Origin: a virus
Length of the DNA stretch: 43,471 bases
IMG/VR virus record: IMGVR_UViG_3300031669_000069
Span: 1 to 43,471 of that record
Reading direction: 5' to 3' (one strand)
Shown: in pieces, positions 3,129-39,017 of the stretch
How the letters are laid out: each line of letters starts with the position of its first letter
How positions within the stretch are numbered: position 1 is the first letter of the stretch
Notes under the pieces: model-generated
Told to the model about the DNA's origin: nothing
Databases searched by the model: none
Seen by the model: only the letters and a program-made list of their open reading frames with translations
Position numbers and translations under genes: made by a program

Positions 3129-3434
3129 TCATTCCTTTTCAGTTATGCTGCCATCTTTGTTTAGAACATAGTTCGGAAAATCGATACAATCCTGTTTGCG
3201 GGATTCGCGGAAACGATTTGCCGCAGTATTCGCTTTGTAGCCACATTCAACCGCTGCCTTGATGAACTCTTCGCGGGTAGCCCAAGGACAATTGAAAGCT
3301 GCTTCACGAAGGATGCCGGACTGGGTTATTGGCTCGACCCAGTTTTCCTCAATCCACTGAATTGTGGCAAAGCAGCCGATGCGTTCGTTTTGCTCGGCGG
3401 TCAGTGCTTGGTCTTGGGTTGGGCAGTCGTTCAT
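3129..3434 (-). CDS. Hypothetical soluble protein (early cassette)
   Basis: A 101-residue protein with strong AAGGAGA site and the leader ACCACTAAGGAGA shared with other early genes. The segment CPWATREEFIKAAVECGYKANTAAN (residues about 49-73; key residues TREEF, AVE.G, TAANRF) resembles the 'RadV..A.e.GI...TAATQ' pattern of the three proteins at 37859-39773, so it may carry a short diverged form of that domain. No membrane segment. Function unknown. Confidence 0.8.
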   Translation of the reverse strand: MNDCPTQDQALTAEQNERIGCFATIQWIEENWVEPITQSGILREAAFNCPWATREEFIKAAVECGYKANTAANRFRESRKQDCIDFPNYVLNKDGSITEKE

Positions 3435-3457
3435 TTCATTCTCCTTAGTGGTTGGTT

Positions 3458-3658
3458 TTACTTAACTTTTGGTTCTTCGATTTTGATGAAGCAGTTTTTC
3501 ATGTTTGAATAATGTTGCTCCAATTGTTCGCCGGTATCTTCACGGGTAGTGAAAACAGTGAGCCCTCTAAATCCGGTTACAAGGTAAGTGGCTTTCGTGA
3601 AACGGTTGACCCACTTTGAACCGATTGTTACAAACTTCGGTTGGTTACCTTTTGCCAT
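3458..3658 (-). CDS. Hypothetical small protein (early cassette)
   Basis: A 66-residue protein beginning MAKGNQPKF. The second ATG is preferred: AAGGAG lies 7 nt before it but is directly against the first ATG (3664). The pattern of short beta strands (KFVTIGSKWVNR, TYLVTGFRG, LTVFTTRE) suggests a small beta-barrel fold. It is the first gene after the promoter at 3696-3723. Function unknown. Confidence 0.8.
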   Translation of the reverse strand: MAKGNQPKFVTIGSKWVNRFTKATYLVTGFRGLTVFTTREDTGEQLEQHYSNMKNCFIKIEEPKVK

Positions 3659-3747: not shown

Positions 3748-3851
3748 ATAATAACCTCCTAATTTAGTGGCATCCAAATACCTCTAAATAAGTAATTTTG
3801 GCAACCTATAATAAGGGCTGAATTCACTTTTGAACCTTTTTGGGCATACCA

Positions 3852-5780
3852 ATGGTCGATACCTTCAAACCTCCCCGTTCCAAAAGTATTGTCAGAACTG
3901 CCCGAGCGGCAGTAACTGCAGATACCAAGGCGCGTGAAAGAGCTGTGAAAGATGCCTCCAAGGCGCGCAAGAACGGCTCCACCGTTGACTCCTTTGTAAA
4001 CTTCGCACATAACCTCGGGGTTGGTGCGGATAACGCATTGTCGAGTGCCTCCTATGGATTCAATCCAATCTCCCGTAACAGAACTCAACTTGAATGGATA
4101 CACCGCGGCTCATGGCTGGGTGGCGTAGTTGTAGATTCAGTAGCCGATGATATGACTCGGGCAGGTATTGAGCATATTGGCACAATGAAACCTGACGATA
4201 TGGAAGCACTAGATGAAGCCGCTGTTACTTTCGGCATCTGGAATGCTATCAACGATACAATTAAATGGGCACGCCTTTATGGCGGCGGTATTGCCGTAAT
4301 GCTCATTGACGGTCAGGACCCCGAAACACCCTTCCGACTCCAAACTATCCGCAAAGGTCAATTTCGTGGGCTCCTGAGCCTTGACAGATGGATGGTGGAA
4401 CCAAGCCTGATGGACTTGGTCACCGAGTACGGCCCGAATCTTGGCTTGCCGAAATACTATAGAGTAACTGCGCAAGCTCCTGCTCTTAGCGGAGTCAAGA
4501 TTCACCACACCCGATGTGTCCGGTTGGAAGGTATCAAACTTCCCTACTGGCAACGCATCATGGAAAACTTGTGGGGGCTGTCAGTCATTGAAAGATTGTA
4601 CGACCGGATGATTGCGTTCGATAGCGCCACTACTGGCGCGGCACAATTGGTTTATAAGTCTTATCTGCGTACCTTGAAGGTTAAGGACATGCGTGAGGTA
4701 GTAGCAGCCGGTGGAGATTCCCTCATTGCCCTGACCCGCTATGTAGATATGATGCGCAGGTTCCAAGGTATTGAAGGTATGACGGTGATTGACTCCGATG
4801 ATGATTTCACCGCAGACAGTCACGCAGCATTCGGCGGCTTGTCAGATGCCCTCGCTCAATTTGGTCAACAGTTATCTGGCGCCTCGGGCATTCCTTTGGT
4901 TCGTTTGTTTGGCCAATCGCCGGCAGGCTTCAGTACTGGGGAAACCGACCTTCGCAATTATTACGACACAATCAAGCAGCAACAGGAAAAGGAATTGAAA
5001 GTCCCTGTGGCTATCATTTATCGTGCACTCGCCGCTTCGGAAGGCATCCCCCTGCCGGAAGGGTATCGTCAGAATTTCCGTAGCTTATGGCAGCTTTCAG
5101 ATGAAGAGAAATCGAATATTGCCCAGACCGATTCTACCTCTATCCTGAATGCGGAAGAGAAGGGCACCATCGACCGCGGAACCGCTCTCAAAGAGCTCCG
5201 CCAGTCCAGCCAAGTGACTGGCCGTTTCAGCAATATCACAGATGAAATGATAAAGGATGCCGAAGGGGAAATGGCTCCTGAAGCATCTGAGTTGGTGGCC
5301 AAGGCAGAGATGGAAGAAGGTAAAGGTGAGGAAGCTGTTGCGAAAAGCGACGACCCAAAAGCCAGTGACCCGAAGCCATCCGCGGACAAGAAAACCAAGA
5401 CTACAAAAGATGCTGCTAGACCTCAAGCAGCCGGTGTTCTTTATTGCTCGGGCGACAATGTCCTGCTGTTGAAGCGGGTGGGTCACGAAGCACCTTGGTG
5501 GGACTTGCCCGGAGGTGGGGTGGAGGCCGGCGAAACACCGAAAGATGCTGCCATCCGGGAAAGCCAAGAAGAAGTTGGGCATACTCCAAACACCTTATTT
5601 CCGCTTGTAACTGATACCTCAGGTGGCTGCGATTACACAACTTTCTTTTCCGGAATAGCTAACGAATTTACCCCAGTGCTCAACGCTGAACATTCGGAAT
5701 TCAAATGGGTCGACATAGATACCGCGCTTGGCATGCCGCTGCATCCCGGAGTGCGAAAGTTGTTGGAAAAGGGAATATAA
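3852..5780 (+). CDS. Portal protein (DUF1073-type) with C-terminal Nudix hydrolase domain
   Basis: The portal is the dodecameric ring at the capsid vertex through which DNA is packaged and ejected. Residues about 60-455 have the DUF1073 portal pattern (GSWLGGVVVDSVADDMTRAG, WARLYGGGIAVMLIDGQ, IPLVRLFGQSPAGFSTGE). A charged Lys/Asp/Glu-rich linker (about 465-525) leads to a complete Nudix domain in the last 117 residues. The Nudix box G-x5-E-x7-RE-xx-EE-x-G is intact (GVEAGE...RESQEEVGH, about 555-577), so an active nucleoside-diphosphate-X hydrolase is expected. ATG at 3852 chosen over an in-frame TTG at 3840; neither has a clear ribosome site. The fusion is one uninterrupted frame. Confidence 0.9.
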   Translation: MVDTFKPPRSKSIVRTARAAVTADTKARERAVKDASKARKNGSTVDSFVNFAHNLGVGADNALSSASYGFNPISRNRTQLEWIHRGSWLGGVVVDSVADDMTRAGIEHIGTMKPDDMEALDEAAVTFGIWNAINDTIKWARLYGGGIAVMLIDGQDPETPFRLQTIRKGQFRGLLSLDRWMVEPSLMDLVTEYGPNLGLPKYYRVTAQAPALSGVKIHHTRCVRLEGIKLPYWQRIMENLWGLSVIERLYDRMIAFDSATTGAAQLVYKSYLRTLKVKDMREVVAAGGDSLIALTRYVDMMRRFQGIEGMTVIDSDDDFTADSHAAFGGLSDALAQFGQQLSGASGIPLVRLFGQSPAGFSTGETDLRNYYDTIKQQQEKELKVPVAIIYRALAASEGIPLPEGYRQNFRSLWQLSDEEKSNIAQTDSTSILNAEEKGTIDRGTALKELRQSSQVTGRFSNITDEMIKDAEGEMAPEASELVAKAEMEEGKGEEAVAKSDDPKASDPKPSADKKTKTTKDAARPQAAGVLYCSGDNVLLLKRVGHEAPWWDLPGGGVEAGETPKDAAIRESQEEVGHTPNTLFPLVTDTSGGCDYTTFFSGIANEFTPVLNAEHSEFKWVDIDTALGMPLHPGVRKLLEKGI

Positions 5781-36509: not shown

Positions 36510-37256
36510 TCAAGGTACTCCTATTAGTTTGTGATTTTGCAATTGTAAGGTGTATCCAAATTCCATCACGCTGTTAACTGTGGTATTTAGATTCTCACGG
36601 TTCTTTCCTTCATCTCCTTCATCAGCAGGTTGAACCAAGACCATGCCTTGAAATCCCACAGGGGGACGTGCCAACCTGCCTCCGCAAGGATGCTTCAATG
36701 CTGACATTGGAAGTCCGTCTACATCTGAAACATCCTCCGAACAAATGACATACTTTAGGGTTTGGATGTGGGGAACTAAATCCTTGTTGATGGAACCTGT
36801 CTTCGGGCTGCATACAACTATGATGTCTTCGTAGGGGAGGTCTTGATAGAGGGTGCCATTGGTTTCGAGTTGAACTCCGAATCCATCTTCAAGCAGGGCT
36901 TCGATTGCCGGCCGCAGGTTTTGGCGAAAGGGTTCCCCACCTGTAATAACCACAAGATAGCCCATGTTAATTTCAACCCTTAACGCCGTTGCCATCTCTG
37001 AAGCAGCCCAGTCAGGCAGGTTAGGGGTAGCAGCGTGTTCTACGGCCTTTACAAGCTCGTTTGGAGCCATTAAACCGCCATGTGAAGTGTATTCGGTATC
37101 GCACAGGGGGCATTGGAGGTTGCATCCCCATAACCGGACAAAGATTGCCCGTTGCCCGGTGAAAGGACCTTCGCCCTGTATAGTTTTGAAAATGGAATGG
37201 ACTTTGAGTGAGCCGTCCACGGATGTAGATGGCTTTTCGGGCGGTTGGATATTCAC
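36510..37256 (-). CDS. queE: 7-carboxy-7-deazaguanine synthase QueE (radical SAM)
   Basis: A 248-residue radical SAM enzyme. FKTIQGEGPFTGQRAIFVRLWGCNLQCPLCD holds the QueE TIQGEG motif and the CxxxCxxC cluster (Cys45, Cys49, Cys52); VVITGGEPFRQN is the SAM-binding GGE motif, LETNG the next. First gene of the operon: a perfect GGAGGT 5 nt before a GTG start, about 22 nt downstream of the expected start of transcription from the promoter at 37285-37312. Confidence 0.94.
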   Translation of the reverse strand: MNIQPPEKPSTSVDGSLKVHSIFKTIQGEGPFTGQRAIFVRLWGCNLQCPLCDTEYTSHGGLMAPNELVKAVEHAATPNLPDWAASEMATALRVEINMGYLVVITGGEPFRQNLRPAIEALLEDGFGVQLETNGTLYQDLPYEDIIVVCSPKTGSINKDLVPHIQTLKYVICSEDVSDVDGLPMSALKHPCGGRLARPPVGFQGMVLVQPADEGDEGKNRENLNTTVNSVMEFGYTLQLQNHKLIGVP

Positions 37257-37284: not shown

Positions 37285-37312
37285 ATTATAAGGCAATCAC
37301 CCTTGTATTCAA
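37285..37312 (-). promoter_or_regulatory. Promoter of the deazaguanine/replication operon
   Basis: Minus-strand TTGAAT, 16 bp, TATAAT. It lies between the terminator at 37335-37366 and queE and shares the 16-bp spacer with the other early promoters. Confidence 0.75.
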
Positions 37313-37334
37313 TAGGGAACCTTGAACCCTCCTC

Positions 37335-37366
37335 ACAAAAAAGAAGCCGGCAGGGGGCGCCGGCTT
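37335..37366 (-). terminator. Intrinsic terminator, minus strand
   Basis: AAGCCGGC (37344-37351) pairs with GCCGGCTT (37359-37366); on the minus strand the hairpin is followed by CTTTTTTG. It ends transcripts that enter from the structured locus on its right and isolates the queE promoter. Confidence 0.85.
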
Positions 37367-37367
37367 T

Positions 37368-37801
37368 AAAGGTTTGATGTTGATGTTTCAGCGTTTGTCT
37401 CTCCCCCGATAATCCACTCATCCTTGTCAGATTGGTTTTAACCTACCCGTCCGGCCTCTTGTGTGCTTTCGCCCTCGGGGCTAGCGGGGCTACCTGAACC
37501 GTTCCCTCAAGAGTACGTCTACCGCTCAAGGATTTGGCACCACGTCAGGCACTTGAAACACCAACAGGTCGATCACATTTCACCCTGCACAGGGGACGTG
37601 GTCCATGAGCATACCCTTGACCTATCCGTCATGAAATGTGACCGCCTCTTGGTACTTCTCTTTTGGGAAGTTCCTCCGCCTCTATTTCTGCGCCGGTTGG
37701 ACGATGCCCGAGTTCGATCGTGGGTTTCCCCTTAAACGTTCGTCTCCTATTGCTTTGCCAACTTAGACCAGACCTCATCGAGGCTGAGGAACTTCCGAAA
37801 A
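37368..37801 (-). ncRNA. Candidate structured non-coding RNA, about 0.43 kb
   Basis: No credible gene lies here, but paired elements are dense. Arms 37661-37682 and 37780-37801 form a 22-bp stem with two mismatches. TCACATTTCA (37573-37582) pairs with TGAAATGTGA (37632-37641). ACCACGTC (37539-37546) pairs with GACGTGGT (37595-37602), crossing the former, i.e. a possible pseudoknot. CTCTTG/CAAGAG (37456/37508) and GTTGG/CCAAC (37696/37758) are further helices. On the minus strand 37722-37731 reads GGG-GAAA-CCC, a GNRA hairpin, which favours that strand. It ends in the terminator at 37335-37366. No clear promoter of its own was found. Confidence 0.55.
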
Positions 37802-37822
37802 AGCCTCCCCCGAAGGGGAGGC
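37798..37822 (-). terminator. Intrinsic terminator with UUCG loop, minus strand
   Basis: Minus strand GCCTCCCC-TTCG-GGGGAGGC followed by TTTTT, 37 nt after the stop of the gene at 37859. A strong rho-independent terminator of the three-paralogue operon. Confidence 0.88.
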
Positions 37823-37858
37823 CTGCCAACAACCACGAAGGCACTGTTGACTTGTTAC

Positions 37859-38302
37859 TCAGCTTGCTGCTGGCTCGGTTGCAGGGGCCGCTGCCGGTGC
37901 CTTGGCTGCTTTAGCTGCTGCCTTGGCGGCGTCCTTGGCTGCTTTGTCGGCTGCTTTTTTGGTATCCTTCTCAGCTTTGGCTGCTGCCTTGGCTGCTTCC
38001 TTTTCTTCAGCAGTTTGCTTCGGTGCAGCAGGTGTAGCCTTCACACCATTGAACTTGCACCAGCGGCCGAACTGGGTTGCAGCTGTGGTCACATTGATAC
38101 CTTCGGCTTCAGCAGCCTTCAGGACATCCGCACGTTTGGCAGGTGCCTTGGCTTCAGCTGACTGCGCATCGGCGATTTCCCAGATACGGCCGGTTGCAGT
38201 ATCTGCGCCAGGACGGGTAACACCGTTTTGTTCGATCTTGGGTACCTTCACCGGTGTGACAGGTGCGGTTGCCTCAGGTGCTGCGGTTTGATTCTTTTCC
38301 AT
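37859..38302 (-). CDS. Small-domain paralogue A with Ala/Lys-rich tail
   Basis: A 147-residue protein. Residues about 35-88 hold a domain (GRIWEIADAQ...KRADVLKAAEAEGINVTTAATQFGRWCKFNG) that also occurs in the two genes upstream. The C-terminal 55 residues are Ala/Lys-rich, histone-like (KEAAKAAAKAEKDTKKAADK). ATG at 38302 chosen for the AAGGAGA site; a longer frame lacks one. The basic tail suggests DNA binding and the shared domain looks like a small helical, perhaps winged-helix, module. Function unknown. Confidence 0.75.
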   Translation of the reverse strand: MEKNQTAAPEATAPVTPVKVPKIEQNGVTRPGADTATGRIWEIADAQSAEAKAPAKRADVLKAAEAEGINVTTAATQFGRWCKFNGVKATPAAPKQTAEEKEAAKAAAKAEKDTKKAADKAAKDAAKAAAKAAKAPAAAPATEPAAS

Positions 38303-38417: not shown

Positions 38418-39017
38418 CTAGATGCCTTTTGCCTTCTTCCATTTTGCATATTGTGTCGCTGCGGTTGAACCATTGATACCTGCTGCTTCACATGCCGCGA
38501 TTACATCAGCACGGTTGGGCATTTGGTTCCCGGCCTTTTCGAATTCAGCATCCGCCAGTTCCCAAACTTGACCAGTCGTACTCGTGGCCTTTGGGCGACT
38601 AGGTGGTGCATTCGGGTCCTTCTCTTCTTTGGGAACCGGAGTAGTAGGGTCGTCCAGATTGATACCGAGGCGCTTAATTTCCCGCATCAGTTCTTCAAAC
38701 GTCTTACCATCCTGCTCTATCTTCTGAACCACTGCCAGTGCATTGCGAACCAAATCTTCGTATGCATCAGGTGGGGTTTCCTGAGTCAAGTCCCAGTACA
38801 GATATTGGAGGTTGAGCTTTTCCAATTTGGAAAACCCGCGCCCTTCTACTGGTGGGGCAATAACTCTGCGCCCTTGTTGTTTGAATATATGTCCCCACAG
38901 GGTAACACATTTCAGGTCTGCAACCTTCAGTATTTTGGTGCCTTTGGGGGTAGTTACATCAATCAACATATACATAACAGGTCCCGGTGGTGGGTTAAAT
39001 GTACGAATACTTGCCAT
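38418..39017 (-). CDS. Small-domain paralogue B
   Basis: A 199-residue protein. The N-terminal half (MYMLIDVTTPKGTKILKVAD, LWGHIFKQQGRRVIAPPVEGRGFSK) is beta-rich and unlike the neighbours. A proline-rich linker leads to the shared domain at about 145-199 (GQVWELADAEFEKAG...NRADVIAACEAAGINGSTAATQYAKWKKAKG). TAGGAGA before the ATG. Function unknown; conserved place among two paralogues suggests a common early role, perhaps nucleic-acid binding. Confidence 0.8.
   Translation of the reverse strand: MASIRTFNPPPGPVMYMLIDVTTPKGTKILKVADLKCVTLWGHIFKQQGRRVIAPPVEGRGFSKLEKLNLQYLYWDLTQETPPDAYEDLVRNALAVVQKIEQDGKTFEELMREIKRLGINLDDPTTPVPKEEKDPNAPPSRPKATSTTGQVWELADAEFEKAGNQMPNRADVIAACEAAGINGSTAATQYAKWKKAKGI

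Follow-up and report, generated by a model that had tools for sequence, protein, structure and literature searches.

The window analyzed here is the 43,471-base IMG/VR virus record IMGVR_UViG_3300031669_000069 (positions 1 to 43,471), in which the genes run helicase, small proteins, Ala/Lys-rich protein, queE, queC, queD, folE, clamp and polymerase, an order similar to that of Vibrio phages 033B and VpKK5. Its DNA polymerase is 47–51% identical to Queuovirinae polymerases (JG054, Seurat), and from sequence alone we infer that the phages hosting the locus described below form a Queuovirinae-like lineage infecting bacteria. About 600 bases separate the stop (37,859) of the Ala/Lys-rich phage protein gene (37859..38302; its ATG at 38302 is inferred from homologues) from the start (37,256) of its downstream neighbor queE (7-carboxy-7-deazaguanine synthase-like; 36510..37256). 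Both genes, and the RNA parts and transcription signals of the gap given below, are on the minus strand.

An original prediction had placed in this gap, at 37335–37822, a non-coding, densely paired locus bounded by terminators and had proposed it as a novel phage RNA. The coordinates were correct, and the claim that the locus holds no believable gene was upheld: its open reading frames are mechanical only (71 and 90 aa), a PHROG search with them gave no phage-family match, and across the conserved domain every one of the six frames contains stops in each of the four homologues. A conserved protein frame in relatives, which would have refuted the prediction, was thus looked for and is absent from the four members. 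Fold-energy z-scores for 37330–37830 are -4.7 (minus strand) and -3.8 (plus strand), with 0/100 shuffles as good, and the three homologues introduced below have RNA-sense fold z-scores of -3.3, -5.2, and -4.6. Terminators were detected on both sides as claimed (37798–37822 and 37335–37366), and the two principal stems are real: the 22-bp stem has arms at 37661–37685 and 37777–37801 (25 nt, 88% complementary; P1 hereafter), and the 10-bp stem is CGATCACATTTCA/TGAAATGTGACCG (P2). For the 8-bp helix said to cross the latter, the window offers a candidate (37539–37546/37595–37602); one homologue (L079) has an 8/8 equivalent and a second (L080) only 7/8, in another domain, and the conservation of this helix is not established.

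We infer that the RNA extends from P1 to its 3′ terminator (37344..37801, ~458 nt; fold z -3.7 to -4.7, with covariation across three homologues); members of the family span ~370–480 nt. From 5′ to 3′, the order of parts is a hairpin with a U-run, P1, strand A, P2, strand B, the P3 arm, P5 with a pseudoknot, a variable hairpin, strand C and the terminator. Comparison shows that the 5′ side consists of one or two long hairpins whose sequence varies while the helices persist. The 5′ domain of the window (37661..37801), closed by the 25-nt arms of P1, keeps its long stem, with 15–20 pairs retained in different letters among members; in L114 a single hairpin, rather than two, ends in the A:B helix and so may correspond to P2, not P1. 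Strand A (GAAGUACCAA; 37649..37658) is the alternative partner of strand B, with 10/10 pairs, and their pairing forms the base of the P2 hairpin (37555..37658).

The ~185-nt 3′ domain (37379..37565; 184 positions in our covariance model, R1) is the conserved part, and comparison shows it to comprise a closing helix, the P3 arm and a pseudoknot. Closure is by strand B (GUUGGUGUUUC; 37555..37565) and its 3′ partner, strand C (GAAACAUCAAC; 37379..37389), which form 11/11 pairs in all four members even though most of the helix has changed sequence in L114 (window, GUUGGUGUUUC:GAAACAUCAAC; L114, GUAGGUGAAAC:GUUUCACUUAC). The P3 arm (37491..37551) contains UGCCUGA/UCAGGUA, P3b, a conserved AAA, and the P3c/P3d hairpin with a GACG loop; P3b is GCC/GGU, changing to GUC/GAC in L080 and AUG/CAU in L114, and three members close the GACG loop with A-U, U-A, or G-C, whereas the fourth has C-G and a different loop. 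P5 (37471..37490) is an invariant GCCC/GGGC in the four members, and its loop carries CCCCGA (37475–37480), which pairs with UCGGGG (37404..37409) across the P5 stem (37471–37474/37487–37490). This pseudoknot, found in 4/4 members (one mismatch in L079; outer pair C-G replaced by U-A in L114), is not the crossing helix named in the original prediction. The core motifs of the RNA are CCUGACGUGGUGYC, UCAGGURGCCCCGCU, and CCCGAGGGC.

At least three homologues beyond the window, in distantly related viruses, exist in IMG/VR (L021, which is the same as L079; L080; and L114), and all four members lie between the Ala/Lys-rich gene and queE on the same strand. L021, a syntenic relative located via a neighboring protein, matches the window at 76% identity over 190 nt (E about 3e-30); L080 and L114 were found by scanning a queE alignment and then with a two-sequence profile (E = 2e-26 and 4.5e-12, respectively). 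Homology of the 3′ domain is thus supported by nhmmer and blastn, and R1 scores it at 180.7 bits by cmsearch, although the model was built from that domain. Run on 92 records of viruses and phages, either related or candidates, the covariance model recovered only the four members and one chance-level match. Named phages and plasmids, searched at the DNA level, gave no homologue. Several further candidates were rejected: scans with a 15-mer (GAAATGTGATCGACC) and a 16-mer (GGTTCAGGTAGCCCCG) returned chance matches except for the L021 contig, seven genome-contig matches to a gapped pattern were due to chance (0/7 recovered by profile or model), and a weak model match in G034 (9.5 bits), which was not in the slot, was dropped. 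No match was found, under stricter filters, in 369 genomes of the class of a Limnohabitans match, a search with little bearing on lytic phages. On the queE tree, three members are neighbors and L114 belongs with them to a group of eight that has moderate support, and the history of the RNA could involve either one gain with losses or two gains.

The original prediction would also have been refuted by a lack of covariation among homologues, and here the support is strong. When the four 3′ domains were aligned with plain MAFFT, without structure, 95.5% of base-pair cells paired (vs. 30–45% with slid partners), seven pairs had changed on both sides (vs. 2.6 in shuffles), and the covariation score of 0.303 (vs. 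0.148 for shuffles) was reached by 0/500 of them. A hand alignment, built with the structure in view, paired 153/156 cells, falling to 127–131 after 3′ strands were swapped between species, and 14/39 pairs were doubly compensated. The 21 G-U cells favor a minus-strand RNA: there, 153 cells pair, as against 133 on the opposite strand. While the family evidence rests on four members only, all metagenomic and without transcript data, there is little doubt that the locus represents a real, uncatalogued RNA family.

Comparison further shows that strand B is able to pair with either A, on its 5′ side, or C, on its 3′ side, the two helices being mutually exclusive. A:B comprises 10, 8, 7, and 6 pairs in the window, L079, L080, and L114, and the energy difference between the alternatives is 5.2, 2.0, 1.5, and 8.9 kcal/mol, respectively, favoring A:B in three members and B:C in L079, with the caveat that the pseudoknot is unscored by the tools used. 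Refolding during transcription is a natural reading, though an inferred one; strand exchange between molecules is conceivable.

Signals for transcription flank the structure on both sides. Upstream, a terminator-like hairpin ends in a U-run (37798..37822) that pairs with an A-run of P1 (UUUU:AAAA) in three of four members, so that the RNA must include this U-run. There is no room for a promoter between the U-run and P1, and none was found in the window between the upstream terminator and the RNA, as originally noted. Read-through of the upstream terminator is therefore inferred to be the simplest source of the RNA, and transcription as a whole is still merely inferred. Downstream, the RNA has its own intrinsic terminator (37338..37366; 9-bp stem and U-run), which strand C does not overlap and which in L079 is preceded by a tRNA and a tRNA-like element. 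A sigma-70-like promoter for queE (TTGAAT-N16-TATAAT; 37285..37312) lies 3′ of this terminator, and the same TATAAT box, 16–17 bases from a -35-like hexamer, precedes queE in 4/4 members. This promoter call is a consensus match and no proof of use; its conservation between RNA and queE nonetheless makes it unlikely that the RNA serves as a leader for the que operon.

The same slot upstream of queE varies among relatives, being empty or holding tRNAs, tRNA-likes or other hairpin-rich elements. In the RNA-less relatives L082–L084, a single terminator is followed by the TATAAT box, and the empty site is thereby shown. tRNA genes occupy the slot in L102, L106, L132, and L090, and several slot tRNAs lack a normal anticodon loop, having 18 nt in L079 and 66 nt in L102. 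A number of tRNA-likes (L079:3685-3765 and 3768-3868; L102:3507-3631 and 3432-3500; L090:3794-3860) combine good acceptor, D, and T arms with an anticodon arm that is of excessive or insufficient length or has been replaced (18-nt and 66-nt stretches); inferring from sequence, we consider them likely to be non-decoding. Two other structured elements were observed in this slot, a multi-branched one with a ~21-bp closing stem in L146 (3748-3892; z = -7.5) and one with a 20-bp stem among the tRNAs of L102 (3632-3760; z = -6.0). Both lack an Rfam match and look unrelated to the window RNA. The window itself has no tRNA (ARAGORN), and ARAGORN and Rfam were negative there for a tRNA/tmRNA cloverleaf or tRNA-like domain.

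Searches of Rfam 15 gave no family match, even at permissive thresholds. The GOLLD and ROOL covariance models matched neither at gathering cut-offs nor at E<=5 with permissive filters (window, L021, L080, L114), there was no match to preQ1 or other riboswitch models, the group I intron model reached 12 bits against a cut-off of 50 in the window, and group II introns gave no match. Weak hits to named families (TCV_Pr, SmY, CRISPR-DR8, group I intron) were below cut-off and fell on terminator hairpins or flanks, or were noise. The open-access literature, searched for Queuovirinae with structured RNA, yielded nothing.

Taken with the likenesses set out next, these data support the original proposal of a novel structured phage RNA resembling GOLLD and ROOL, on the grounds of homologues, covariation, absence of a reading frame, absence of an Rfam match, niche and anatomy. 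GOLLD and ROOL occur near phage tRNA islands and their functions are unknown; GOLLD has a universally conserved 3′ region and a less conserved 5′ region, many GOLLD RNAs exceed 800 nt, and a solved ROOL measures 659 nt (PMC12286853). Like GOLLD, the window RNA is phage-borne, sits near tRNA genes (adjoining a tRNA in L079, in the same slot in relatives) and has both a conserved 3′ domain and a less conserved 5′ domain; unlike GOLLD, it has no Rfam match, is about half as long and has core motifs of its own. A homo-oligomeric (14-mer) cage is a further mark of GOLLD. With ROOL it shares being a large, ornate, pseudoknotted phage RNA near tRNA islands, whereas it is shorter, has no Rfam match and shows the 3′/5′ split that is a GOLLD trait rather than a ROOL one. 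OLE RNA is likewise a large ornate class of unclear function, yet it is found mostly in Bacillota extremophiles (PMC12054373), not in phages, and there is no Rfam match here.

We therefore favor, with a probability of roughly 0.62, the reading that the locus encodes a stand-alone structured non-coding RNA of ~460 nt, on the minus strand, in an accessory tRNA slot upstream of queE in Queuovirinae-like phages, its transcription and function both being inferred. It would be of the ornate phage-RNA kind, working at most by analogy with GOLLD and ROOL and belonging to neither family. The RNA would be co-transcribed with the upstream gene through a leaky terminator, its U-run paired into P1, and would end at its own terminator; A:B would form first and refold to B:C once strand C is made; and the product would be a stable free RNA acting in trans or as a particle, like GOLLD or ROOL, and not an on/off switch for queE. 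No promoter of its own is visible, and oligomers, read-through and refolding are all inferred.

Among alternatives, a cis-acting leader (riboswitch or attenuator) of queE-queC-queD-folE, with A:B and B:C as two states and the terminator as output, is unlikely. As in preQ1 riboswitches and attenuators of queuosine genes, the RNA lies directly upstream of the que operon (4/4 members) and has what a leader calls for, a pair of helices that exclude each other and a terminator after them. However, a leader also calls for no promoter between RNA and operon, and the TATAAT promoter stands there, separate and after the terminator, in 4/4 members and in RNA-less L082–L084; moreover, strand C is separate from the terminator stem, the RNA is missing from most phages that carry the same operon, no preQ1 or other riboswitch model matches, and a tRNA comes between RNA and terminator in L079.

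Also improbable is a known large RNA, GOLLD, ROOL, or another, that has diverged beyond the reach of Rfam models. The phage setting, tRNA slot, conserved 3′ and variable 5′ domains, pseudoknot and attached tRNA in L079 speak for it (PMC12286853), whereas the failure of each of the four members to give a match at E<=5, even under permissive filters, and member lengths well below those cited above speak against it. That the RNA is a structured 3′ UTR by which the mRNA of the Ala/Lys-rich gene is protected or processed is similarly doubtful: P1 pairs with the upstream U-run, so the RNA must reach into that terminator, and there is no promoter between gene and RNA, but the conserved part is the 3′ domain, distant from the gene, and relatives with the same gene have a simple terminator only. 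A role at the DNA level, as an origin or packaging signal with repeats that merely resemble RNA, is very unlikely: the dense inverted repeats in a non-coding gap are offset by 21 G-U cells mostly unpaired on the other strand, hairpin and internal loops conserved in sequence, absence from most relatives and a position away from the switch between the two gene blocks.

A bolder extension of the stand-alone RNA reading is possible, in which the slot is an island where structured RNAs that do not decode are exchanged (the bistable RNA with its pseudoknot, tRNA-likes that lack a usable anticodon loop, and the elements seen in L102 and L146) and in which the window RNA forms particles or acts as a decoy or anti-defense RNA during infection. 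Phages offer few large structured RNAs. Another, unrelated family in a like niche, whose ~185-nt core is small enough to dissect and whose empty site is defined in relatives, would make it possible to ask why phages retain ornate RNAs next to tRNA genes. The covariance model makes the family searchable in other data.

Two observations concern the upstream neighbor. The proteins of window 38418-39017 and 37859-38302 have a common domain (TG.VWELAD...RADV..A..A.GIN.STAATQ..KW) with PHROG matches solely to families of unknown function, one of the two having an Ala/Lys-rich tail. Just past the Ala/Lys-rich gene and ahead of the terminator (37825-37838) is a TGGYTGTTGG-like motif, which is also present in RNA members and in the RNA-less relatives L082 and L084.
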